A stretch of 55,102 nt of DNA. It comes from Longimicrobiales bacterium. Lineage in GTDB: Bacteria; Gemmatimonadota; Gemmatimonadetes; Longimicrobiales; Gaopeijiaceae. The stretch lies in assembly GCA_028823235.1 (NCBI GenBank), contig JAPKBW010000019.1, forward strand, positions 1-55,102, in the 5' to 3' direction. The notes below the pieces were generated by a model, which saw nothing but the letters and a program-made list of their open reading frames with translations, searched no databases and was not told the DNA's origin. Shown piece by piece: positions 36,096 to 53,934 of this stretch (position 1 is its first letter; every line of letters starts with the position of its first letter). The position numbers were made by a program, and so were the translations under genes.

Positions 36096-37424
36096 ATGAT
36101 CCCGGATCAGCACGGGGGCGTTCACCCCGATGACCTTTCGCGACGACGAACCGCTGTGCTCGAGCGCCTCGGAGGGGGTGCGATGGTCCTCGCCTCTGCG
36201 CCCATCCAGTTCGCATCCCGTGACACGGAGAGGCTCTACGTCGCCGACCGGGAACTCTTCTATGTGGCCGGTCTGACCGAACCGGAAACGGTCGCGGTGC
36301 TGGTCGGGGGCTCTGAGCCACGTCTGGTCATCTTCGCTCGCCCGCGCGACGCTGATGCTGAACTCTGGTCGGGTGTGCGCCTTGGGGTCGAGGCGGCCGT
36401 CGAACAGGCGGGTGCCGACCAAGGTTATCCCGTTTCGGAACTTGCGGCGGAGCTCCCTGCCTTGTTGGCGGGTGCCGATCGGATCCACTACCGGCTCGGG
36501 CGAGAAGATCTCGTGTCCTCACTGGTTACTGGCGCCCTCACGACCGCGCGCGCCGGTGGCGCGAGGCAAGGGACAGGTCCGCGTGGGTTGATCGATCCGG
36601 GGGAGATTCTCGATGAACTCCGGTTGATCAAGGACGACCGCGAGCTGTCAGCGCTCCGAGCCGCGTGCCATGTGACGGCCCACGGACACCGTGCGGGAGC
36701 GTCGCGGATCCAGTCTGGGGTTGGCGAATGGGTAATCGAAGCAGCGATCAACGGCGCCTTTCGAGAATCCGGAGCGACCAGGCCGGGCTTCGACACGATC
36801 GTCGGCGGCGGACAGAACGGATGCGTGCTGCACTACGTGAGCAATGACATGCGCATCCCCGAGGACGGACTCGTCCTAGTCGACGCCGGCGCAGAAGTCG
36901 CCCACTACCATGGGGACATCACAAGGACTTGGCCGGCCTCAGGGCGTTTCACAGATGTGCAACGCGACGTCTATGAACTGGTGGACGCAGCCAAACGAGC
37001 CGGAGTGGAAGCGTCGACGCCTGGGAACACCATTATGGGTGTGCACGCGGCGGCGACCGCCGTGCTCGTGGCGGGCCTGGTTGATCTAGGTGTGTTGAAA
37101 GGGGCGCCTGAAACCCTGATCGAAACCGGCGCGCACAAACCGTTCTTCCCCCACCAGACGTCACACTGGCTCGGCCTCGACGTCCATGATCCGGGGGACT
37201 ACCAGAGGGCGGGGAAGCCACGAGAACTCGTGCCGGGGATGGTCTTCACTGTGGAGCCAGGACTCTATTTTCGCCCTGAGCTTTGTTCAGGGCGTGCCTC
37301 TCGCTTCGCTGGGATCGGTGTGCGGATTGAGGACGACGTAGCGATCACACCAAATGGTTGCGAGGTGCTTACTGCTGACATTCCCACCGCAGCTGATGAA
37401 GTCCAGGGAATGGTCGGCGGATGA
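36096..37424 (+). CDS. pepP: Xaa-Pro aminopeptidase (M24B)
   Basis: A 442-residue cytoplasmic aminopeptidase P. The N-terminal creatinase-like domain (ERLGGGAMVLASAPIQFASRDTE, FYVAGLTEPETVAVL) precedes the metallopeptidase domain with all ligands: VDAGAEVAHYHGDITRTW (two Asp), HQTSHWLGLDVHDPG (His), TVEPGLYF (Glu) and GVRIEDDV (Glu). HHTSHWLGLDVHD-type sequence is typical of PepP. The start is ATG 36096; the next gene overlaps by ATGA. It differs in domain detail from the M24 peptidase at 14919. Confidence 0.93.
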   Translation: MIPDQHGGVHPDDLSRRRTAVLERLGGGAMVLASAPIQFASRDTERLYVADRELFYVAGLTEPETVAVLVGGSEPRLVIFARPRDADAELWSGVRLGVEAAVEQAGADQGYPVSELAAELPALLAGADRIHYRLGREDLVSSLVTGALTTARAGGARQGTGPRGLIDPGEILDELRLIKDDRELSALRAACHVTAHGHRAGASRIQSGVGEWVIEAAINGAFRESGATRPGFDTIVGGGQNGCVLHYVSNDMRIPEDGLVLVDAGAEVAHYHGDITRTWPASGRFTDVQRDVYELVDAAKRAGVEASTPGNTIMGVHAAATAVLVAGLVDLGVLKGAPETLIETGAHKPFFPHQTSHWLGLDVHDPGDYQRAGKPRELVPGMVFTVEPGLYFRPELCSGRASRFAGIGVRIEDDVAITPNGCEVLTADIPTAADEVQGMVGG

Positions 37425-38263
37425 ATCTGCTTCTCGAAGCGCTGACAAAGCCGGGACCCTTGGTCACCGTTGAACTGCGACCGCCACGATCTGATTTGGC
37501 ACCGGAAGCGGGTATGTCGGCCTGGATCGACCTCCATCACTCGCTCGGACGACTCGCGAAGCAGGAATTGTTCGTCTTTCTCACGGACAACGCTGTTGGG
37601 GCCGCAGAGGAGGAGAACCTCGTGCACGTCGGGGGGAATGTCGGAGACTCCGTCGACTTGAGGCGCATCGTCCCGATTTTGACCTGCAAGCACAGCCGTG
37701 ACTATTGTGAGACCTTCGCCGCACGCGCGGGCGCGGACGGCTTCGAGTCGCTGACGGTTCTTGGGGGAGATGTGTCGGTCCCACCCCCTCGCTGTGTCCC
37801 CCACGGGCGGGATCTTCGTGAGATTCTTGGAGAGCGCATGCCCGAGATGGCACTGGGCGGGTGGGTGAATCCTCACCGAGACACGGCCCAGCAGGTGGGT
37901 TTCCTAGAGTCGCCCGATGCCTGTGCTAGCTTCGCGCTGAGTCAGGTCGTTTCCCACCACTCTCTGGACAGGGTGTCGAAATTTCTCGAGACGCACGCTT
38001 CGACTGGCTCGACAAAGCCCGTTGTGTTTGGTGTGTTCTACTATCGCTCGGCAAACCCGAAGACACTCGACATCCTTTCGCACTTCTTTCCTGTGCCGGT
38101 TGAGGAGATCTCCGAGGAGTTCGCCGCGGGCAGCTCAGCGGAGGAGATCTGCGCGCGATCGATCCGTGAGTTGCGGGCAATTGGTGCGGAAAAGATCTAC
38201 GTCAGCAACCTGGGGGAGCGTGGAGTTGGGCGTCGCCTTCGCTCCATTCTGGAACTCGTCTGA
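37421..38263 (+). CDS. Divergent methylenetetrahydrofolate reductase-like protein
   Basis: A 280-residue protein overlapping pepP by ATGA. It follows the MetF barrel pattern: VTVELRPPRSD (like ElfPPk), VPILTCKHSRDY, ESLTVLGGD (like LRGD), GGWVNPHRD, and SFALSQVVSHHSLDRVSKFLE where MetF has the TQ.FFD helix, then KPVVFGVFYYRSANPKTL and IRELRAIGAEKIYVSNLG. It probably binds FAD and folates, but key residues differ, so another flavin or folate role is possible. It converges on a fused homocysteine methyltransferase/MTHFR. Confidence 0.65.
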   Translation: MNLLLEALTKPGPLVTVELRPPRSDLAPEAGMSAWIDLHHSLGRLAKQELFVFLTDNAVGAAEEENLVHVGGNVGDSVDLRRIVPILTCKHSRDYCETFAARAGADGFESLTVLGGDVSVPPPRCVPHGRDLREILGERMPEMALGGWVNPHRDTAQQVGFLESPDACASFALSQVVSHHSLDRVSKFLETHASTGSTKPVVFGVFYYRSANPKTLDILSHFFPVPVEEISEEFAAGSSAEEICARSIRELRAIGAEKIYVSNLGERGVGRRLRSILELV

Positions 38264-38304: not shown

Positions 38305-40149
38305 TCAGGCAGTAGATCGAAGTCCGCTCTCGCGGAGCACGCGAAGAGCGATTCCAACGCGCCGGTGGGGTGCGGTCAGATGGAATCCCTGAACGAGCGG
38401 TCGAATCGCATCGATGGTTTCGAGAGCGATTTGCACGCCCTCTTCGGTCGCAGCGTCCGGGCCGGATTCCTGGGCTCGCCTCATACGTTCGACGATCTCC
38501 GGGGGCACCTGTACACCGGGCATTTCGTTGGCGAGGAACTCGGCACTCCGCAGGCTCTGAAGCGGCCAGATGCCGGCCAGGACAGGGATGACTGAGTCCG
38601 TTTGATCGAGGAAGCTCCGCAATCCGTCGACATTAAACACTGGCTGGGTTATCGCGAAGTCTGCCCCAGCCTCCACTTTGTATCGGAAGCGCGAGATCTC
38701 TCGCTCTTGATCCACGACTCCCTGATTCAGTGCAACGCCCTGGACGAACTCGGTCGGTGGCCCGATGGAGTTGTTCCCTGGATCCACCCCCCGGTTCAAC
38801 CCGTGCAAGACGTTCGTCAGCCCGATCGAGTCGATATCGAAGACGGCGGTCGCATCCGGGTAGGGACCCATCGGCGGAGGATCTCCCGAGACCACGAGCA
38901 CGTTTCTCAGTCCGCAAGCCGCGGCGCCTAGGAGGTCCGAGATCATGCTGAGCATGTTCTTGTCGCGACACGTGTAGTGCACGATGGGCTCGATCCCGAC
39001 CTCGCGTTCGATGATTAGGGATGCGGCGAGGGCTCCCATCCGGCTACCACTTCGTGGGCTCTCGACGATACTTACCGCGTCGACCCCGGCCACTTTGAGC
39101 TCTCGGGCGGGCTCCGTAAGTGCCGAGGCGTCCCAACTATGGGGCGGAATGATTTCGACTGAGGCAACGCTGAGGCCACGGGCCAGTTTGCGTCCCCAGG
39201 CAGATCGAGCTTCCAGTGGGATCGGGTCAGAAAGTGTGGGTTGTTCGACCACCGTAGCCGCTACAGACACCGATACGTGCCGTGGCTGCAGCACCTCAAC
39301 AGCTTCGCGCATTTTGCGTGTGTGGTCCGGCGTCGTTCCGCAACATCCACCCACGAAGCTCACGCCGACGTCGATCATGCGACTCGCGTACTGCCCCATG
39401 TACTCGGGGCTTGCGAGGTACATCTTCCGATCTCGGACGGTCCTAGGTAGCCCTGCGTTGGGCTGCGCAGAGAGTGGCAGTGAGGTTGCCTCGCTCATGT
39501 CCTCGATCGCATCGAGCATGACCGCAGGACCGACCGAGCAATTGAGCCCGATCACGTGGGCACCAGCGGCTTCCAGTCCCGCGGCTACATGGGCTGCGTC
39601 ACTTCCATACGCTGTCTTGCCGTCCTGCCCCAATGTCATCTGCGCAAAGATCGGGAGGTCGCAGCAAGCCCGAACTGCTTCAATGGCACACCCGATCTCG
39701 CTCATGTCGGAGAACGTCTCGAGCACGAACCCTTGCACCCCGCCTTCCAGCAAGCCTGACACTTGTCGCCGAAAAAAATGGGTCGCTTCGGCCAGAGAGG
39801 TCGGGCCCCACGGTTCGATCCGGATCCCCAGAGGACCGATCGCGCCCGCGACCACGGCCTGACCCGATGCGGCTGTCTTCGCAAGCTCCGCCGCGACGCG
39901 ATTCAGTTCCTCCGTGCGATCCTCCAGCCCGTAGGAGGACAGCTTCACCGGATTCGCGCCGAACGTATTGGTCTCCAGCACTTCGGCACCCGCCGCGACA
40001 TATTCTGCGTGAATACTGCTAACCAGTTGCGGCCGGCTGAGGTTCAACTCGTCGTAGCAGACATTCACGAAGACGCCGCGGCTGTATAGAAGCGTGCCCA
40101 TGGCGCCGTCGAAGACGTGGACTCGCCCGTCGTGGATAAGATCCTTCAT
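38305..40149 (-). CDS. yitJ: Bifunctional homocysteine S-methyltransferase / methylenetetrahydrofolate reductase
   Basis: A 614-residue fusion. Residues 1-~300 form a homocysteine methyltransferase barrel: [36 protein letters not shown] and the zinc cysteines in [15 protein letters not shown]. Residues ~330-600 form an MTHFR barrel: [42 protein letters not shown] and [12 protein letters not shown]. This matches YitJ-type proteins. It provides methyl-THF and may methylate homocysteine from another donor. The frame runs to 40215, but ATG 40149 ([15 protein letters not shown]) overlaps the metH stop by ATGA, so it is the second gene of the metH operon. Confidence 0.92.
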
Positions 40150-43100
40150 GGGGCGGTTCCGGGCTCGTAACCGAGATTGGGCTGCAGCCAGCTTTCGGCT
40201 TCCTTGAGAGTCCATCCCTTTCTTCGGGCGTAGTCTTCGACTTGGTCACGGCCGACCCGTCCGATCCCGAAGTACCTCGACTCGGGATGAGAAAAGTACC
40301 AACCGCTTACAGAAGCGCCCGGTGTCATCGCAAAGCTTTCGGTCAGTGCGACGCCAATGGTGGCCTCCACGTCGAGGAGTTTGAACAGTGTGAGCTTCTC
40401 CGTGTGGTCAGGGCACGCGGGGTACCCCGGGGCCGGGCGGATGCCCGAGTAGCGTTCAGCCACCAGGGCATCGTTGTCGAATGCTCCGGAAGCAGCGTAG
40501 CCCCACATGTCGGTTCGCACGTATTCGTGCAGATATTCTGCGAATGCCTCGGCAAGGCGATCAGCAAGCGCCTTGACCATGATCGACGAGTAGTCGTCGT
40601 GCTCCGCCTCGAAGGCGCGGGCCATACGCTCGGGTGCGTCCCCTGCGGTGACCACGAACGCACCCAGCCAGTCCGCCCGTCCCGAATCGGCTGGGGCCAC
40701 GAAGTCAGAGAGAGCCACGTTGTCTCGGTCACCCTTCCCGAACTGTTGTCGGAGCCCATGAATGACGGACGAGTCGGCGGAGACCGATTGACCGAGGCCT
40801 ACCCGGATGTCGTCTCCTTCGGCTTGCGCAGGGAAAAGGCCGACGATCCCTACTGGTGATACTCCACCATCGGCGATCATGCGGGCCAACATCGCTTCGG
40901 CGTCTACCAACAGCGCGCGAGCCTGTTCGCCGACCGTCTCGTCCTGTAGGATCGCCGGGTATTTGCCGTGGAGTTCCCACGCCGTGAAGAACGGGGTCCA
41001 GTCGATGTAGGGGCGCAGAGTGTCGACGGTGACGTCCTCGATGACGCGTACACCCGGGGACGCCGGCGTGGGCGGCTCGTAGGATGCCCAGTCGAGCTTC
41101 AGGGCTCTCCGTCGTGCTTCGTCGAGGGGCAGGAGCTGGCTCTTTGCGCCGCGTTCGGCACGGCGCGCGCGCAACTCCGAGTAGTCTGCCCGAGTCGCTG
41201 CGAGGAAGTCGGGACGACGGGCATCGTCCAGAAGTGTGGCCACTACACCGACCGCACGGGAGGCATCGTGCACGTGGACGACGGGGCCGTCGTACTTGTC
41301 TTCGATCTTGACCGCTGTGTGTGCTTTCGAGGTCGTCGCTCCTCCGATGAGGAGAGGCGTGTCGAAGCCCGTTCGCTTCATCTCACTTGCCACGTGAACC
41401 ATCTGGCCGAGCGACGGCGTGATCAGGCCGGAGAGTCCGATCACATCCACTTTCTCAGCACGGGCGACTTCGAGGATCTTCTCCGCAGGGACCATTACGC
41501 CGAGGTCCAGCACCTCGTAGCCGTTACACTGCAGAACCACACCAACGATGTTCTTCCCGATGTCGTGAACGTCACCTTTCACGGTAGCCATCAGGATCTT
41601 GCCTTTCCCTTTGTTGTCCGTCTTTTCCGCGTCGAGATAGGGAACGAGCCACGCCACGGCCTTTTTCATGACCCGGGCACTTTTCACGACTTGTGGCAGG
41701 AACATGCGTCCGCTCCCGAAGCGATCGCCGACAACGTTCATGCCGTCCATGAGAGGACCCTCGATGACGTCGAGCGCGCGTGGAAGTGCGATGCGCGCTG
41801 CCTCCGCATCCTCGTTGACGTACTGGTCGATCCCATTCACGAGTGCGTGAATGATGCGCTCTCGGACCGGAAGTTCCCGCCAAGAGAGATCCTCAAGAAT
41901 TCGATGTTCTGTCGTGCCCGTACGCTCCTGAGCGATATCCGTGAGCACGTCGGTGGCGTTGCTGGTGCGGGCGAAGATCACGTCTTCGACCGGCTTCAGA
42001 AGGTCGTCCGGAATGTCATCGTAGGCGGACAGTGCTCCCGCGTTCACGATGCCCATGTCGAGGCCCGCCTCGATGGCATGATAGAGAAAGGCCGCGTGCA
42101 TGGCTTCGCGAACCTCGGGGCTTCCTCGGAACGAGAACGATACGTTGCTGACTCCGCCGCTCGTCAGTGCGCCTGGGCACGTTTCTTTGATCCGGCGAAC
42201 CGCTTCGATGAACCAGATTGCGTACTGCTCGTGTTCCTCGATTCCTGTGGCGACGGCGAAGATGTTCGCGTCGAAGATCACGTCCTCGGGAGGGAATCCC
42301 TCCTCATTCACGAGGATGTCGTACGCCCGAGAGCAGATCGTGACCTTCCGCTCCAAGGTGTCAGCCTGGCCGGCCTCGTCGAACGCCATGACGACAGCGG
42401 CCGCCCCAAATCGCCTCACGAGCCGAGCCCGTTCTCGGAATTCTTCCTCCCCGTCCTTCATGGAGATCGAGTTGACCACGCCCTTGCCCTGCAGGGTCTT
42501 CAGGCCCGCCTCGATAACGGCCCAGTCAGACGAGTCGACCATGACTGGGATGCGCGCGATGTCTGGTTCCGAACCCAGGAGGTTGAGAAAACGGCTCATC
42601 GCGGCCACCGCGTCGAGCAGGCCTTCATCCATGTTCACGTCAAGAATCTGAGCGCCGCTCTGCACCTGCTGAAGTGCGACCTCCACCGCGGTCTCGTATT
42701 GATCGTCACGGATAAGTCGCGCGAACCTTCGTGATCCGGTGACGTTCGTGCGCTCTCCGACATTCACGAAAAGAGACTCGGGCCCGATGGTCAGCGGTTC
42801 CAGTCCGGAGAGGCGAGTGCGTGTCGGCAGCTCTGGCATCGGCCTCGGTGCAATGTCGGCGACAGCATCGGCGATCGCTCGGATATGATCCGGCGTGGTG
42901 CCACAACAGCCGCCGACGATGTTGAGGAATCCTGCCGTGGCGAAATCCGCCGTGATCTGCGCCATGTGTTCGGGCGTGTCATCGTACTCTCCGAACTCGT
43001 TCGGCAGGCCCGCGTTCGGATAGCAGCTTACAGGCACAGTGGCGGCGTCGGAAAGCTCCTCGAGGAAGGGGCGCAACTGGTCGATACCGAGCGCGCAGTT

Positions 43101-43886
43101 AAGACCGACCGATAGCAGGCCGCGCCGCTTACCGGGGCCGGGCTGCACACCGTGCGAGACTGAATTCCACATCGCCTCGGGCGTTTGGCCCGAGAGGGTC
43201 CGGCCACTCTGATCGGTAATCGTGCCCGAGATCATCACCGGGACATCGTCTTCGAAACCTTCAAGGACATTGGATACTGCGAAGAGCGCGGCTTTCGCAT
43301 TCAGGGTATCGAATGCGGTCTCGATAAGAAGCACATCTACTCCTCCAGACAGCAGGCCCCGAGTCTGCTCCGAGTACGCCAGTACTAGGTCGTCGAAGGT
43401 GACGCCCCGGGCGCCGGGGTCACCGACATCGGGGGAGATCGAGGCCGATCGGGTCGTGGGCCCAAGCGCCCCTGCAACCCAGGCGGTACGCCCGGGATTG
43501 CGGTCTTCAAAACGATCGACGGCCGCCCGCGCGACTCGGGCCGCGGCTTCGTTCAACTCCTCAGCAATGTCGTCCAGACCGTAATCGCGGAGTGAAACAC
43601 GGTTCGCGCTGAAGGTGTTCGTCTCGACAAAATCGGCTCCCGCGTCGAGGTATTGCTCATGGATGTCGCGGATCATTTCCGGCCGCGTCATGCACAACAG
43701 ATCGTTCGCGCCGAACAGCGGGATCTCGTTGTCGGCGAACCGGGCACCCCGGAAATCCTCTTCGGTGGGTTCATGACGCTGGATCATGGTACCCATCGCG
43801 CCATCGATGATCAGGATGCGCTCCGTGAGAGCCTCGTCGAGGAGCCTAGTGCGCTCGGTTCGCGGGAGGTGGCCGGCCGTCGTCAT
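40146..43886 (-). CDS. metH: Cobalamin-dependent methionine synthase
   Basis: A 1,246-residue four-module enzyme that transfers the methyl group of methyl-THF through cobalamin to homocysteine. Modules in order: homocysteine barrel ([28 protein letters not shown]; zinc site [13 protein letters not shown]); pterin barrel ([28 protein letters not shown]); B12 domain with axial His in [19 protein letters not shown] and [13 protein letters not shown]; and the C-terminal SAM reactivation domain ([31 protein letters not shown]-like). The frame extends to 44000, but ATG 43886 fits homologues. No SAM or cobalamin riboswitch was recognised upstream. Confidence 0.97.
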
Positions 43887-44333
43887 CGGTTGTCTCTCCA
43901 ATGCAAAGCCCCTCGCAGAATACACGATGGGGCCCAGCTTTTTAGCTTGTTTGCCGCCAGACTCCGATGAGCCTGTCGTGCGGGCCGCAATACGCTTCAA
44001 ATCGCCCCTGCATGATTGTACCTCAAGCTAATGTCACCCCATCGGCTCATCCAGTATGCGAACTTGATCATGAAGATGTTGTCCGGAATGATCCTGAAGA
44101 ATTAGTCTGTATTTTTGCGAAATCCCAGGCCTCATAGCTTGCCGGCGTGGCCTAGATGATGAGTGGTCAAGCGGAGCATCGCCCCGATATGGTATCGTCG
44201 GATCTAGGCGTTTCACCGCCACCCACCTTGTTCGACGTACACTCGAATCGGTTGGTTGCGATGACGTCTGTCTCTACGTTCCTGGCCGTTGGCCGGTTTC
44301 GACTGGTTCCCTTGGTTTTTTACGGTCCCATTC
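43887..44333. other. 447-base divergent gap between metH and the dapF homologue
   Basis: No coding sequence is supported. It must hold promoters for both genes. On the minus strand TACAAT occurs at 44020-44015 with GTGACA only 12 bases upstream, too close for a standard sigma-70 pair. B12-box, SAM and THF riboswitch consensus elements were looked for upstream of metH and not found. No tRNA was found. Confidence 0.4.
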
Positions 44334-45281
44334 ATGGTTCGTTGGCTTCCACGTCCTCGTCTTGATCGCGCCTTTTACAAGGCACATGGCCTTGGGAACG
44401 ACTACCTAGTCTTCGAAGAGGGTGATGACTGGGACGCCTCGCCTGAGAATGTGCGTGCGGTGTGCGACCGCTTCTCGGGAGTCGGATCTGACGGGATCGT
44501 TGTGCTGGCTGATCCGGGGCAACCGAGGCGTTCCCAGGTATCTGTGGAACTCCGGATGTTCAATCCTGACGGTGGAGAATTTGAGCGAAGTGGCAACGGC
44601 CTTCGCATACTCGGGTCCTACCTTGCCCGATCGATCGAAGGGCTCAGGAACATTGATGTCCGTGTCGGCGGCGAGGAGGTGCACATGATCGTTCATGGGC
44701 GCGCTGGTGCCGTGCATGACCTCTCGGTGGAGATGGGGATCGCCCGCACTGGGCCACCGGCCGTCGACCTGAATGTCGGCGCGATCTCGCGGACAGATGG
44801 CATGCGGATTTTTCTCCCCGGGCCGGCAAGAGAGTCACTTGAGATCGTTCCTGTTTCGATCGGAAATCCTCACCTTGTCGTTGTCGGTGTCGATGGTAAG
44901 AGTACAGGGATGACCGAGTTCCAACTCGCGCGCCTTGGCCCTTTTTTGGCTGGACATGCGGCCCTGGAAAACGGGGCCAATGTTCAGCTCGCGGTACCCG
45001 ACGGACTCTCTGAGTGCCGAGCCTTGATCTGGGAGCGCGGGGTCGGGCGCACCGCTGCCTCGGGTACGAGTGCATGTGCGGTTGCCGTCGCGATGGTTTC
45101 CTCAGGCCAGTTATCGCCCTGTGAAATCGCGGTTGCGATGCCCGGGGGCAGTCTGTCCGTCACCGTCAGCTCCGACCTCGATGTTGTCCTGCGTGGGCCG
45201 GTCGAGGAGGTGTGTGAAGGGCAAATCAGCACACGGCGTCTGGCCGAGATGACGCGTTGTGCAGGCCAGGACTGTGCCTAG
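44334..45281 (+). CDS. Diaminopimelate epimerase homologue lacking both catalytic cysteines
   Basis: A 315-residue protein aligning along its whole length with DapF. Substrate-contact sequences are kept: HGLGNDYLVFE, GVGSDGIVV, FNPDGGEFE, SIGNPHLVVV, ENGANVQLA and WERGVG. The two catalytic cysteines are replaced: the usual DGSE..xCGNGxR reads FERSGNGLR (Ser86), and TxACGTGACA reads TAASGTSACA (Ser243). In known DapF the pair acts as the two acid/bases of racemisation, so normal activity is doubtful, though a Ser-based or different reaction is possible. ATG 44334 is preferred over the longer frame at 44289. Its stop shares CTAG with lptG. Confidence 0.85.
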   Translation: MVRWLPRPRLDRAFYKAHGLGNDYLVFEEGDDWDASPENVRAVCDRFSGVGSDGIVVLADPGQPRRSQVSVELRMFNPDGGEFERSGNGLRILGSYLARSIEGLRNIDVRVGGEEVHMIVHGRAGAVHDLSVEMGIARTGPPAVDLNVGAISRTDGMRIFLPGPARESLEIVPVSIGNPHLVVVGVDGKSTGMTEFQLARLGPFLAGHAALENGANVQLAVPDGLSECRALIWERGVGRTAASGTSACAVAVAMVSSGQLSPCEIAVAMPGGSLSVTVSSDLDVVLRGPVEEVCEGQISTRRLAEMTRCAGQDCA

Positions 45282-47763: not shown

Positions 47764-47805
47764 CGCAGCGGTTCTCGTTTCCTCTTGGGTGGACATGCGT
47801 CCGGC

Positions 47806-50800
47806 TTGATTCCGCGACTCGTTACACTGCTTGTGGCCCTTGTGGTCCCCTTAATTGCGAGGGATACAGACGTGCGTCCGGGCGCCACCCGCAGCGGCGT
47901 GGAATCGACGGACTCCCGAGGCCTGGGGCCAGCCCCCAGGCCGGCGATCTCGGACACCATCCTGCGGCCTGATCTGACACTGCCGAGCGGTGCGGTTCGG
48001 GCAGGGCTCACCGCCTCGGCGGATGAGCCACACGTGACGCTTGGCATGCGCCGGATTCGGGTCGGACCAGGGGGGCTGGGGCAACCGCGGACGGTGCCGG
48101 TCGGGACTGCGTCGACGATCGGCCCACTTCCTAGGATTACTCTAGAGCCGATCGATCAAATCGTCCTCAGAGGAAACGTTCGAAATCTGGGCCTGTCGGG
48201 TGCCGATCTTTTCTTGCCCCCGGCGCCGCGGTCGAGGGTTCTCCAAGTTCCGGAGGATACCGACGGCCGCTTCGTCACCGATTACGCAGACCTGGCGTTG
48301 AATGTCCGCAGTCGCATGGAACTCGGTGGCGCTTGGAGTCGCTTCGAACCGTGCGACGCGACGTTCGGAGTGGGTTGTAACCCGTCGCTCATTCCACAAC
48401 TGAGTCCGGACGTGCAGTTCGGGGTCCAAGTGAACGGATCCATTCTGGACCGGGTCTTCGTGGATGTCGATTTTGATCAGGCACGGGAGTTCGATGCCGC
48501 GAACCGGATCAACTTTTTCTATCAGGGCGGTGAAGATGACGTGCTCCGAAGGCTCGAAGTTGGTGACGTCACTTTTCGTCTCCCTCAATCCCGATTCCTG
48601 ACCGAAGGGATCCCAGCAGGGAACTTTGGATTTCAGGCTGAGGGTCAGGTGGGCGCCGTCGATTTTCAGACCGTCTGGGCTCAGCAACGTGGCGATCTCA
48701 ATTCGCGCGTATTCCAGCTTTCCGGCCTGGGTGACCAACGTGGCTTCGTCCAGGAAGACACGCTGGTTCTAGACGACGCGGACTACGTACAGGGTCAGTT
48801 CTTTTTCCTGGTGGATCCAACGCAGATCGATCTTTATCCGCACGTCGATGCACTTCAGTTGGATCCGGCGTCAGCGCCGGCCAGAATCACACCGGGTGAC
48901 CAGCCGCTGCAGCTTTACCGCTTCGAGGACGATCCTGTCTTTCGTCAGCAGGTCGAAGGCTTCATCCAGGCCGATGCGGTCGCTGATGACGGGGTTACCG
49001 AGGTCCGCGAGTCCGGCTGGTTCCGGTATCTCCAGGAAGGAGTCGACTATTCCGTGCACTCCAGTGGACTGTGGGTCGCACTCCGACAGCCACTGAGCCG
49101 AGAGGAGATGCTGGCGGTCACGTATATAACGGCGGTGGGCGACACGATCGGCGACTACAACCCCGAATTGATCTACAACCAGGGAGGCCGGCCTGAACTG
49201 AGGCTTCTCAAGGCTTCTGGCGCGAATCATCAGCCTGGCAGGCCGACGTGGGAGCGAGAGATGCACCAGATCTACCGCGTCTCGGGGTCACCGGATGTCG
49301 AGGCTGGATCCGTCGACCTTTCGGTGTCGCTTGGAGAGCTATCCGCCGGTCGCACGTTCAAACGCAGGCCGAACGGGTCGGACATCACGTTCCTCCGGCT
49401 CTTCGGACTCGATGAGGAAGCGCCGACAGATCGCATCGATCCATCGTTCGTGTACTCACCCGGCCAGGATTTCTTCCAGGATCAGCCACCCGTACAGGGG
49501 ACGTTCATCGTATTCCCGACGCTTCGGCCGTTTGTCGAGCCGCCGCCCGTCCCGGCGCTCAGCCTCAACGAGTTCGTGGCTGGACAGATTCTGGGCGATG
49601 ACGCGAACGTCGGGATCTACGAGCAGGAGGACCCTTTCGAGCGGAGGAACGCTGGTCGCTTCCGACTGACCCTTTCGTACCGAATCCGTTCTCAAGGGGT
49701 CATCTCATCGTTCTCCCTCGGCGCCTTCGGAATCCGTGACGGGAGTGAGCGGATATTGCTCGACGATCGCGCGCTCACGCGTGGGATCGACTATGAGATC
49801 GACTACGATGTGGGCCAAGTGCGTCTCCTGGAACCTGAAATACTGTTCGCATCAGCGCCCAATGCGTCTGTTCGGGCCACTTGGGAGCAGCGTTCTCTTT
49901 TTCAGGTTACGCCGACGCAGGTGTTTGGCTTCAAGACCCATGTGGACCTCGGCTCGAAGGGCGGCATGGACCTTCTCGGGCTCTACCGTTCTGAGAGGTC
50001 GGTTGCCAATCGGCCGATCCTTGGGACCGAGCCAGGCGCGGCACTCCTTGGTGGACTCAATGGTCGGTACGACACCTCGGTCAGCTGGGCGGACCGGGTG
50101 CTGGAGTCGATTCCAGGTCTGAATGTCGCAGGGGTTTCCACGTTCTCCACGAACGGAGAAATCGCTCTGTCGGTACCGAATCCGAACACGCTTGGGCAGA
50201 GCTTCGTCGACGACTTCGACGGTGCTGCGGAACTCCCGATCGCTCTCCGGGCACCGAACTGGATCCTCGGCAGCGCACCGGAGTTTAGAGACGGCGCCGA
50301 GTTGGTGCTGCCAGACGTGGTCGACGAATCAACAGCCGGTTCACTGGTCTGGCAGCACACCTGGGTACTACGGTCGCCTTCGGGGGACAGTCTCGGGGTG
50401 CACGAAGGTCTATTCCCCCGTGCGGACATCGACAACCAGATCAGAGTCGCGGGGTCCGAGGTGCGTGAGTCTGGCCTCCTTCTCTCCCTCGGCTCTAGTC
50501 TGTCAGGTGCTCCCCCTGGCTGGCGATCGGTCACGACACCGCTATCGACGAACGGCTTGGATCTTACGAAGACCGAATTTCTGGAGTTCTACGCGGCGGG
50601 CGGTCAGAGCCTCTCCCTTGTCATCGATCTCGGAATAGTCAGCGAAGACGCGTTTTTCGTCGATGATCAGGGAAACACCGCGGGCACGCGGTCCGACGGG
50701 AGGCCATGGGGACTCGGTATGCTCGATCAGGAAGCAGACCCACGCCTTGGGGAGATCTGGAGTGATGCCCGAGATCAGGTCGGGGTGTGGGACAAGTCGT

Positions 50801-53800
50801 GTCTGGCCGAGCGCGGCAGGATCTATCCGATCGGTGATCCGAGCGCGGTATGCACCAGGGGCAACGGCCGTCCCGACACGGAGGACGTCGATTCCGACGG
50901 GAATCTCGACACAGCGGAGCGACACCTGCGGTACGTCGTGGAGCTGAGCGGCAGCTCGCCGTTTCTCGAGCGCACCACCCAGGAGACTGGGACGGGCTTC
51001 CAACTTTACCGGGTGCCGATCCGTGGTTCGGGTGCGGTCGAGGTCGGCGGCGCGATCTCTGATGCCGACCTCCGTGCCGTTCGGCACCTCCGCATAACGG
51101 TGTCGGGAGCCGGCGGTGAGGTACAGCTCGCGCGGATGCGTTTGGTCGGCTCACGGTGGATCAAACGGGCGGGCGGGGGCGTGCTCGATGGGATCATCGG
51201 CGACACGCTTTCTATTGGCGGCCGGCTCGAGGTCTCCACGGTCTCGGTCGTTACGGAGGGAAGCGACTATGTCTCGCCTCCCGGAGTACTCGAGGAGATG
51301 GCCGACCCGACGCAGGCTTTCATCGGGCAGGGAATCGAATTCAATGAAAAGTCGTTGGGGCTCGTATTCGAGGACGTGCCCGATCAAGGTCGGGCTGAGG
51401 TCTATTTTCGCTTTCCACAGCGCCCGAGGGATTTTCTGTCGTATCGTGAGGCCCGCCTTTGGGCGGTCGCCCGCTCAGGGGATTTCGGCACGACCCGCGG
51501 CAATCGATTCTTCTTCAAGGTCGGGAGTGACTCCGAGAATTTCTATCTCTTCCGGACCGCTCTGAGCCCTCCTGTGTCGGGCGGATTGACGTCGGCCGAC
51601 TGGCTTCCGGAGGTCGTAATCGATTTCACCCAATGGCTGGACCTGAGACGTCGGGCAGAGGAATTGCTGTCGACGGCGCCCCCGGCGCCCGGCGATCCTC
51701 CGGTCCAGGTCTGGTCGACTGACTCGACGTATGCGGTCGTTCTGGGCGATCGTGGTCGGGCGCCGAACCTGGCAGCGGTGCGGGAGCTCTCCATGGGCGT
51801 CTGGAACGAGAGTGGTCTCCCCTCTACCGGCGAGATCTGGATCGATGAACTTCGCCTTGGCCGCCCCGTTCGGGACCCAGGCTTCGCAGGTTCCTTCAAC
51901 GCTGAATTCGACGCTGCCGGCGTCCTCGTGACCCGCCTGAACTTCACGGATCGCGGTGCGTTCTTCAGACAACTTGGGGATCGGGCGACCTACCAGAACG
52001 ACCGCACGCTGAACCTCTCGTCAGCGCTGGCTATCGATCGCTGGCTGCCGAGTGGTTGGGGATTGGACATCCCGGTCACCTTCGATCTGGCAAAATCCAG
52101 TCAGGCTCCGGTCCTCCTCGCGAATTCCGACGTTCGTGCCGATCAGATTGCAAGTCTGCGCAATACGGAAGCTAATCAGACTCGCGTCGGCATTTCCTTG
52201 CGGAAAAGGACGCAGACCGCGAATCCCGTCCTCAGCTTCCTCTTGGACGGCCTCGACGCGCGAGCCTCTATGAGCAGCGTAGATGGTTCGACGGTCACGA
52301 CAGAGAACGAGTCGACCACGTTAGATGCGGGGGTGGGGTGGTTCCGGGAGCCGGAGACCAAGGACTTCGGGATCGTCCCGGGTTTTGCCCAGGACGTGGT
52401 TCGTGCCGTATTGCCGGGATTTCTCGAGGACAAGATCGCAGACTCTCGTCTCCGGCTGACGCCTGTGCGTCTTTCGTTGGGGACGTCCTATTTCCAGCAA
52501 CGCAGTGAGGTCTTCCGTTACGAAGAGATCGTAGTCCGCCCGGACGACGCACTCGCGATCGCGACGTTTGCCCCGCGCGAGTTGCTACAGTTTGCTGCAG
52601 ACATGCGCCTGCGTCCGCTCGAGCCACTCACTGCCGACTTCACCTTCCTCTCGGTGCGTGATCTTCTCGAGCCGGTGAAGGCCAGCGCGGATATGGATGT
52701 GCAGGAGCTGATTGAGGCGGAGCGAGCTCGGCTCGCGGGCCTCGATCTCGGCTGGGAGACGAATCGGACGCTACGTACTGACTTCGTCTACCGCCCCTCC
52801 ATCGTATCCTGGCTCAGGAGTGACATCGACTGGTCTACGGTCTATCAAAGCGATCGGAATACGAACTTTGTCGAGCGCAAGACCGCGGGGGCTGACACGA
52901 CCACGGTGCTCGCCCGAAATGCCCGCGGCCAGCGCGATTGGGGGGCTACGACCGGCGTGAATCCGTCTGCACTGGCAGTCGCCTGGTTCGGGGAGGCGTC
53001 CGATGGTGACGATCTAGCGGTCGCACAATTGCGTTCGATCGTCTCCGCCGTCCGTCCAATTACGGTGACGTATCGTGACGGGATCACGTCGCGGTTCAAT
53101 CGTGCCCCGGTTGATCCACGTTTCGATTATCAGTTGGGCTGGGGCGATTTCGACACCTATCGGTTCATTGATGCGGACACTGCTGCCTCCCTCACTGATC
53201 GATCCAGCTGGCGGATCGCGTCGGGAGTGACACTGCCCGGAGGTGCCGGTATTCAGGTCGGGTACATGGAGAGCGACGCGGAGACGATCGACACACGGAG
53301 TGACCGTCGGACGGTTCAGAGAAATTGGCCCGACGTTCAGGCGACGCTCCCAACGCTCCGGCTGCCGAGCTACACTGGGATCCAGGCGATCAACCTCTCG
53401 ACCGGTGTTGTGAAGACCAAGAGAGAAATCGAGTTCGGAGGCCGGGCGCTACAGCGGCGCTTTGACTCGGACACGCAGGTTCCACTGGACGTGTCCATCC
53501 AATGGTGGCGGACGTTGGTAACGACCTACCGTGGCGCCTATCGCAACGGGACTGGCGTTGATCCGACCGGTGACACGGAACGAGAACAGGTGAGCCACCG
53601 TGTTTCACTCAATACGCAGCTTCTCCCTCCAGTCGCGATCGCCCGTCGCCTGGATCGACCGATCAGCCTGTCGCTCATCGGCGCCTACCGGTCAGATTTG
53701 AATTGCCGCGTCACGGTCACTGGAGACGATTGCGTCGCGTTCATTGACCTGGTTACGAAGACGGCGAGCATGTCCATGAACACGAGCGTTGGGGGCTTTG

Positions 53801-53934
53801 AGTTTGGCATTCAGTTGAGCTATGACGACCGCCAGTCCTTCGTGGGGCAGCAAACGGGGTCCACGCAGTTCCAGGTCGGAATCTTCGGTCAGCTCGATTT
53901 CGCCGCAGGGGGCCTGCCGATCGGGGGCAGATAG
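47806..53934 (+). CDS. sprA: SprA-like giant outer-membrane protein (type IX secretion translocon homologue)
   Basis: About 2,042 residues, one uninterrupted frame. The N-terminus is a membrane-targeting segment (LVTLLVALVVPLIARD). SprA-type sequence includes ANRINFFYQGGEDDVLRRLEVGDVTFRLP with GNFGFQAEGQVGAVDFQTVWAQQRG (~residues 240-300), NPELIYNQGGRPELRLL, SFVDDFDGAAELPIALRAPNW (~800) and repeated beta-rich SprA_N/C modules to a terminal strand (STQFQVGIFGQLDF). In Bacteroidota SprA (about 2,300 residues) is the outer-membrane channel of the type IX system. TTG 47806 is chosen; TTG 47785 would extend it. It diverges from lptF. Confidence 0.85.
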   Translation: MIPRLVTLLVALVVPLIARDTDVRPGATRSGVESTDSRGLGPAPRPAISDTILRPDLTLPSGAVRAGLTASADEPHVTLGMRRIRVGPGGLGQPRTVPVGTASTIGPLPRITLEPIDQIVLRGNVRNLGLSGADLFLPPAPRSRVLQVPEDTDGRFVTDYADLALNVRSRMELGGAWSRFEPCDATFGVGCNPSLIPQLSPDVQFGVQVNGSILDRVFVDVDFDQAREFDAANRINFFYQGGEDDVLRRLEVGDVTFRLPQSRFLTEGIPAGNFGFQAEGQVGAVDFQTVWAQQRGDLNSRVFQLSGLGDQRGFVQEDTLVLDDADYVQGQFFFLVDPTQIDLYPHVDALQLDPASAPARITPGDQPLQLYRFEDDPVFRQQVEGFIQADAVADDGVTEVRESGWFRYLQEGVDYSVHSSGLWVALRQPLSREEMLAVTYITAVGDTIGDYNPELIYNQGGRPELRLLKASGANHQPGRPTWEREMHQIYRVSGSPDVEAGSVDLSVSLGELSAGRTFKRRPNGSDITFLRLFGLDEEAPTDRIDPSFVYSPGQDFFQDQPPVQGTFIVFPTLRPFVEPPPVPALSLNEFVAGQILGDDANVGIYEQEDPFERRNAGRFRLTLSYRIRSQGVISSFSLGAFGIRDGSERILLDDRALTRGIDYEIDYDVGQVRLLEPEILFASAPNASVRATWEQRSLFQVTPTQVFGFKTHVDLGSKGGMDLLGLYRSERSVANRPILGTEPGAALLGGLNGRYDTSVSWADRVLESIPGLNVAGVSTFSTNGEIALSVPNPNTLGQSFVDDFDGAAELPIALRAPNWILGSAPEFRDGAELVLPDVVDESTAGSLVWQHTWVLRSPSGDSLGVHEGLFPRADIDNQIRVAGSEVRESGLLLSLGSSLSGAPPGWRSVTTPLSTNGLDLTKTEFLEFYAAGGQSLSLVIDLGIVSEDAFFVDDQGNTAGTRSDGRPWGLGMLDQEADPRLGEIWSDARDQVGVWDKSCLAERGRIYPIGDPSAVCTRGNGRPDTEDVDSDGNLDTAERHLRYVVELSGSSPFLERTTQETGTGFQLYRVPIRGSGAVEVGGAISDADLRAVRHLRITVSGAGGEVQLARMRLVGSRWIKRAGGGVLDGIIGDTLSIGGRLEVSTVSVVTEGSDYVSPPGVLEEMADPTQAFIGQGIEFNEKSLGLVFEDVPDQGRAEVYFRFPQRPRDFLSYREARLWAVARSGDFGTTRGNRFFFKVGSDSENFYLFRTALSPPVSGGLTSADWLPEVVIDFTQWLDLRRRAEELLSTAPPAPGDPPVQVWSTDSTYAVVLGDRGRAPNLAAVRELSMGVWNESGLPSTGEIWIDELRLGRPVRDPGFAGSFNAEFDAAGVLVTRLNFTDRGAFFRQLGDRATYQNDRTLNLSSALAIDRWLPSGWGLDIPVTFDLAKSSQAPVLLANSDVRADQIASLRNTEANQTRVGISLRKRTQTANPVLSFLLDGLDARASMSSVDGSTVTTENESTTLDAGVGWFREPETKDFGIVPGFAQDVVRAVLPGFLEDKIADSRLRLTPVRLSLGTSYFQQRSEVFRYEEIVVRPDDALAIATFAPRELLQFAADMRLRPLEPLTADFTFLSVRDLLEPVKASADMDVQELIEAERARLAGLDLGWETNRTLRTDFVYRPSIVSWLRSDIDWSTVYQSDRNTNFVERKTAGADTTTVLARNARGQRDWGATTGVNPSALAVAWFGEASDGDDLAVAQLRSIVSAVRPITVTYRDGITSRFNRAPVDPRFDYQLGWGDFDTYRFIDADTAASLTDRSSWRIASGVTLPGGAGIQVGYMESDAETIDTRSDRRTVQRNWPDVQATLPTLRLPSYTGIQAINLSTGVVKTKREIEFGGRALQRRFDSDTQVPLDVSIQWWRTLVTTYRGAYRNGTGVDPTGDTEREQVSHRVSLNTQLLPPVAIARRLDRPISLSLIGAYRSDLNCRVTVTGDDCVAFIDLVTKTASMSMNTSVGGFEFGIQLSYDDRQSFVGQQTGSTQFQVGIFGQLDFAAGGLPIGGR

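Follow-up and report, generated by a model that had tools for sequence, protein, structure and literature searches.

Gene and protein product

The window, by which we mean the whole analyzed stretch of 55,102 nucleotides (contig JAPKBW010000019.1 of the Longimicrobiales assembly GCA_028823235.1), carries on its forward strand an open reading frame that translates into a protein of 315 amino acids (Table 1). The gene stands alone, with metH upstream and two LptF/LptG permease genes downstream, all on the opposite strand. This neighborhood is kept in close relatives and is uninformative on function. Elsewhere in the window, a homocysteine S-methyltransferase/methylenetetrahydrofolate reductase fusion (38305-40215, minus strand) adjoins a full B12-dependent methionine synthase (40146-44000, minus strand). 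A 280-aa open reading frame (37421-38263, plus strand) overlaps the end of an aminopeptidase P gene and has no Pfam match at an E-value of 0.001, and a 2049-aa frame (47785-53934, plus strand) lies divergent from the LptF/LptG genes and is kept beside them in relatives.

The 315-aa protein was matched by the DapF (diaminopimelate epimerase) model TIGR00652 over residues 13-299 with 162.7 bits (cut-off 114.65) and by PF01678 with 108 bits. Proline racemase models were absent among its Pfam and NCBIfam matches, and the score for the bifunctional DapF/glutamate racemase model NF038284 (42.2 bits, cut-off 350) lies below membership. An AF2 model of the protein (pLDDT 94.1) displays the two-domain DapF fold with the catalytic residues at helix N-termini. 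In this predicted structure Ser86 and Ser243 are located just before helices 87-100 and 244-256, respectively, which is the placement of the cysteines in DapF. The top structural matches were DapFs with Z-scores of about 31 (8qzy, 31.4; 4ijz, 31.3) at an rmsd of 2.5-2.6 Å.

Table 1. Positions in the window of the dapF-like gene and of the codons for the residues discussed (counts refer to the Ser/Ser proteins of the order unless stated otherwise)
Feature	Position	Strand	Occurrence or source
dapF-like gene, Ser/Ser variant of diaminopimelate epimerase, 315 aa (ATG 44334 to TAG 45281)	44334..45281	+	family models, AF2 model
Asn22, DAP contact (CgDapF Asn15)	44397..44399	+	85/85; PMC5296763
Asn77, DAP contact (CgDapF Asn74)	44562..44564	+	85/85; PMC5296763
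Arg85, basic, directly before Ser86	44586..44588	+	R 69, K 16 of 85; M/T/L/S in Cys/Cys proteins
Ser86, codon AGT, first catalytic Cys position, motif E-R-S-G-N-G-L-R	44589..44591	+	S 85/85 in order, C 24/24 outside
Asn88, DAP contact (CgDapF Asn85)	44595..44597	+	85/85; PMC5296763
Asn178, DAP contact (CgDapF Asn159)	44865..44867	+	83/85; PMC5296763
Asn216, DAP contact (CgDapF Asn194)	44979..44981	+	85/85; PMC5296763
Glu234-Arg235, DAP contacts (CgDapF Glu212-Arg213)	45033..45038	+	85/85; PMC5296763
Ser243, codon TCG, second catalytic Cys position, motif A-S-G-T-S-A-C	45060..45062	+	S 85/85 in order, C 24/24 outside
Thr245, DAP contact (CgDapF Thr223; H. influenzae and E. coli DapF have Ser)	45066..45068	+	T 68, S 17 of 85; PMC5296763
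Ser246, +3 of Ser243	45069..45071	+	S 84/85; G 23/24, A 1/24 in Cys/Cys proteins

Both catalytic cysteine positions are occupied by serine

Among epimerases, DapF is the textbook example of a two-cysteine enzyme, and its thiols make it a target for covalent inhibitors and antibiotics. In an alignment with solved DapFs, Ser86 and Ser243 of the window protein occupy both catalytic cysteine columns. The original prediction had placed serines at both acid/base positions (AGT at 44589 and TCG at 45060), and codons and alignment agree with it. The thiolate/thiol pair of DapF is absent from the protein. We therefore class it as a Ser/Ser variant homologous to DapF and not as a DapF of the two-cysteine type.

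To place this state in a wider context, homologues were searched for in the order (154 genomes), the phylum (298 genomes) and the GTDB contig collection, and 109 distinct full-length homologues were recovered. Ser/Ser was found in every one of the 85 distinct homologues from the window's order, which represent three families (coded f1 to f3; the NCBI titles include 'Longimicrobiales bacterium') and at least 42 genera. The 24 homologues from outside the order all carry Cys/Cys; 21 of these are from Gemmatimonadota of different orders and a different class, and one each from Planctomycetota, Chloroflexota and Pseudomonadota. In a tree calculated with the catalytic motifs masked, all Ser/Ser proteins group together as a clade (SH-aLRT 99), and the state changes once on the tree. 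Judging from this tree, the change from Cys/Cys to Ser/Ser arose once.

The Ser/Ser homologues diverge down to about 37% identity, and neither serine changed along a tree length of 36 substitutions per site. Ala, Gly and Thr never occur at either site among the 85 sequences. The codon box changed from AGY to TCN at Ser86 in one homologue (L030, TCG) and from TCN to AGY at Ser243 in three others (L091, L111 and L112, AGC). Since both serine codon boxes are used with the amino acid unchanged, selection appears to act on serine itself, and the Ser/Ser state is, by this codon usage, the opposite of relaxed selection. The original prediction had asked whether Ser/Ser is a conserved clade feature or a product of relaxed constraint. 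The first applies: all homologues of the order share it, no close relative is Cys/Cys, and the pattern is one of invariant serines with switching codon boxes.

The DAP pocket and the residues that accompany the serines

In C. glutamicum DapF (CgDapF), D,L-DAP is contacted by eight residues, and replacing any one of them with alanine all but abolishes activity (PMC5296763). All eight (five Asn, Glu, Arg and Thr/Ser) are retained in the window protein, and seven of the eight are matched in every Ser/Ser protein when Thr or Ser is counted at the Thr223 site. The pocket motifs named beforehand (GNDYLV, FNPDG, GNPH, GANV and WERG) are all present, and the claim of an intact substrate pocket is strongly supported by the retention of the eight contacts across the Ser/Ser set. 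As an observation on the Cys/Cys relatives, the equivalent of Asn159 is lost in 15 of 24 (Val, Thr or Ile), although it is an essential contact in C. glutamicum; within the class, the Cys/Cys DapFs of the remaining orders often lack it (L099-L107, L120-L126).

The Ser/Ser (n = 85) and Cys/Cys (n = 24) sets were compared. Near the active site, three positions are fixed in the Ser/Ser set only: a basic residue, Arg or Lys, directly before Ser86, a serine at position 246, and Gln218, the last in 85/85 Ser/Ser proteins. Taken together, the comparisons confirm, at the level of sequence, that both catalytic cysteines have been lost from the sole DapF throughout the order, in a change that is fixed and of single origin, with the DAP pocket unchanged.

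Copy number and DAP pathway context

Among 59 related genomes, 57 contain exactly one homologue matching the DapF model TIGR00652, and 55 have a match above its cut-off. In a few of the 59, one DapF gene is split between pieces. The search for a second, canonical dapF, proposed as a check in the original prediction, came out negative both in the window's own genome, which is 97% complete (PF01678), and in the 59 genomes (TIGR00652). The only extra match, a weak one in G052, shows SG at the second motif and appears PhzF-like. Two genomes of family f2 (G041 and G043), both fragmented assemblies with LysA and DapB present, gave no DapF match by protein or family model.

The route through dapA, dapB and an acyl branch ends in LL-DAP, and LysA acts on meso-DAP. 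Most genomes of f1, f2 and f3 contain dapA, dapB, and dapD or a DapH-type acyltransferase, often together. LysA was found above cut-off in 53 of the 59 genomes, including the window's own (472 bits, cut-off 298), MurE with the DAP-type DNPR motif in 16/16, and the MurE of the window's genome exceeds the cut-off of a DAP-ligase model. DAP dehydrogenase (Ddh) had no match above cut-off in any of the 59 genomes, so that this model search gave no sign of a Ddh bypass of the epimerase step. An epimerase is thus needed to connect the LL-DAP end product of the route with the meso-DAP substrate of LysA, and the Ser/Ser DapF is the only candidate of a known kind for this step.

The context is different in the window's own genome, where model searches found LysA and MurE and did not find a DapA equivalog, DapB or DapD. 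The same three are mostly missing, by model searches, from the window's genus and from G025, G032 and the single-contig genome G034; DapB and DapD were not found in G021 and G031. One genome (G006) contains a 76-residue C-terminal relic of DapD (L220:7384-7611) that shares 66% identity with the intact DapD of G008. Two candidates from the window's genome were considered and rejected. L170 scored 25 bits as a divergent DapB and 76 bits as a 2,4-diaminopentanoate dehydrogenase (cut-off 400), and a comparable match is absent in close relatives. The DapA-like protein scores below the cut-off and is a paralogue also found in members that possess a true dapA.

Genomes without dapA, dapB and dapD still retain LysA, MurE (DNPR) and a constrained DapF; the ratio of the DapF to the MurE evolutionary rate is 1.31 in these genomes and 1.08-1.20 elsewhere, a weak signal of slightly faster DapF evolution. 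With dapA, dapB and dapD gone, the protein cannot serve in these genomes as the final step of ordinary de novo synthesis. These genomes would either import DAP or make it by an unrecognized route, and the role of DapF in them is less certain. The original prediction had offered two options, a serine-based racemase or epimerase and an altered reaction with a DAP-like substrate. Here, the pathway context across the order favors DAP epimerization, and in the window's own genus, without dapA, dapB and dapD, that context is incomplete.

Proposed mechanism and alternative explanations

The best explanation, which we regard with modest confidence as the probable one, is that the protein is a Ser/Ser DAP epimerase that still acts on LL-DAP and, jointly with this chemistry, serves as the sole diaminopimelate epimerase of the order. 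LL-DAP would be bound as in DapF, and the two domains would close and exclude water. Of the two serines, each at the N-terminus of its helix (87-100 or 244-256), one would take the alpha proton and the other would return a proton to the opposite face. Both Arg/Lys85, which is invariant, and Ser246, which is specific to the clade, may tune or position the serines; Ser246 might hold Ser243 in the way the +3 Asn does in the proline racemase superfamily. Such an enzyme would probably be slower than Cys/Cys DapF, and neither a disulfide redox switch nor thiol reagents would affect it.

Engineered Cys-to-Ser mutants of PddB have less than 0.1% activity, and the same was reported for MtDapF (PMC8225329); in HisR the exchange greatly reduced activity (PMC11602996). 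As these mutants are nearly inactive, simple substitution is insufficient, and one has to suppose either some compensation or a slower enzyme. Natural precedents come from the proline racemase superfamily. It includes a Ser/Cys 4-hydroxyproline epimerase and a cysteine-free Ser/Thr dehydratase that abstracts the alpha proton for dehydration (PMC4113996; PMC4364671), as well as a member of the Ser/Thr cluster observed to epimerize 3-hydroxyproline (PMC4113996). In its natural serine-containing members a +3 Asn positions the catalytic serine (PMC4113996).

The order's only DapF, needed for cell walls and lysine, is Ser/Ser, so that either the reaction is done with serine or there is a hidden replacement. 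If the protein is not an epimerase, some other route to meso-DAP must exist in the order. The main rival supposes exactly this: DAP would be bound but undergo another reaction, such as dehydration or elimination on hydroxylated DAP or a one-way proton exchange, and meso-DAP would come from an unrelated, unrecognized epimerase. We consider it rather unlikely. The hydroxyl-only Ser/Thr member of the proline racemase superfamily is indeed a dehydratase (PMC4113996), DapF-like enzymes engineered to carry serine have almost no epimerase activity, and the gene is retained in genomes without dapA, dapB and dapD. However, this explanation needs a second invention, of which nothing was seen, and no Ddh that could bypass the step scored above cut-off. 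Moreover, the pocket equals the plain DAP contacts residue for residue, and nearly every genome keeps the gene, as expected of a housekeeping step.

Less probable still is a DapF that has lost catalysis and persists as a binding or regulatory protein, either as a DAP sensor or as a partner, as E. coli DapF is for RppH in the solved complex (6d13). Pseudoenzymes are usually marked by loss of both catalytic thiols, but serine is strict at both sites in 85 sequences with both codon boxes in use, the proximal catalytic sub-site (N88, E234, T/S245) is retained, and serines at both faces would be superfluous for a pure binder.

It is very improbable that LL-DAP is used directly in the wall and lysine is taken up from outside, so that DapF activity was no longer needed and the cysteines were free to drift. 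The loss of dapA, dapB and dapD in the window's genus and the dapD relic of G006 do indicate that DAP metabolism is changing there. Drift, however, predicts varied residues rather than invariant serine, LysA is kept at full score, and Ser/Ser is equally fixed in families with the whole pathway. Finally, a sequencing, assembly or codon-reading artefact that hides a true cysteine has a negligible chance, and a pseudogene or recoding is excluded with it, by the agreement of 85 homologues from dozens of independent assemblies, the use of both TCN and AGY codons, and the ordinary catalytic or metal-binding cysteines encoded in the same genome (GuaA, GICYGMQ, L148; MetH, GGCCGTT).

To return to epimerization by the serine pair, we regard it as evenly balanced whether the protein is the first natural cofactor-independent amino acid epimerase that works on a Ser/Ser pair, as the order's sole and essential DapF, with Arg/Lys85 and Ser246 as parts of an altered acid/base machinery. 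Our literature search found no published description of a Ser/Ser DapF or of usable Longimicrobium wall chemistry, which is weak evidence, as subscription journals lay mostly outside the search. With an order that has only a cysteine-free DapF and a whole DAP pocket, abstraction of an unactivated amino-acid alpha proton by a hydroxyl pair becomes directly testable, and Arg/Lys at -1 and Ser at +3 offer natural sequence clues to such chemistry. If the serines do catalyze the reaction, redox control and thiol inhibition of the DapF step can be lost naturally.

Comparison with known systems

The window protein resembles DapF (TIGR00652, PF01678; E. coli 4ijz, P. aeruginosa 8qzy, C. glutamicum 5m47) in full-length homology, fold, the eight DAP contacts and the presence of one copy per genome. 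It differs in having serine for both catalytic cysteines, Arg/Lys before the first, Ser at +3 of the second, and Gln218. The H. influenzae DapF mutants C73S and C217S (2q9h, 2q9j) are engineered single Cys-to-Ser exchanges at the same two sites. In contrast to these, the window clade has both serines, natural and fixed, together with residues that look compensating.

The overall fold is shared with the Ser/Cys 4-hydroxyproline epimerase (B9JQV3, Avi_0518) and the Ser/Thr t3HypD (B9K4G4, Avi_7022), as would be a natural serine base and a +3 positioning residue. The second residue is Cys or Thr in the proline racemase types and Ser in the window protein, and the +3 residue is an Asn after the first serine in the former and a Ser after the second in the latter. 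Among the structural matches, proline racemase and hydroxyproline epimerase chains have 11-16% identity to the window protein, and their substrates differ. The Cys/Thr aspartate/glutamate racemase EcL-DER (PMC8142540) is a natural cofactor-independent racemase that lacks one catalytic cysteine, but it belongs to another fold family, keeps one cysteine and works one-way. HisR, CntK, PddB and O-ureidoserine racemase have a DapF-like fold in which the substrate changed and Cys/Cys was kept. The window clade reverses this pattern: the DAP pocket was kept and the cysteines were lost.
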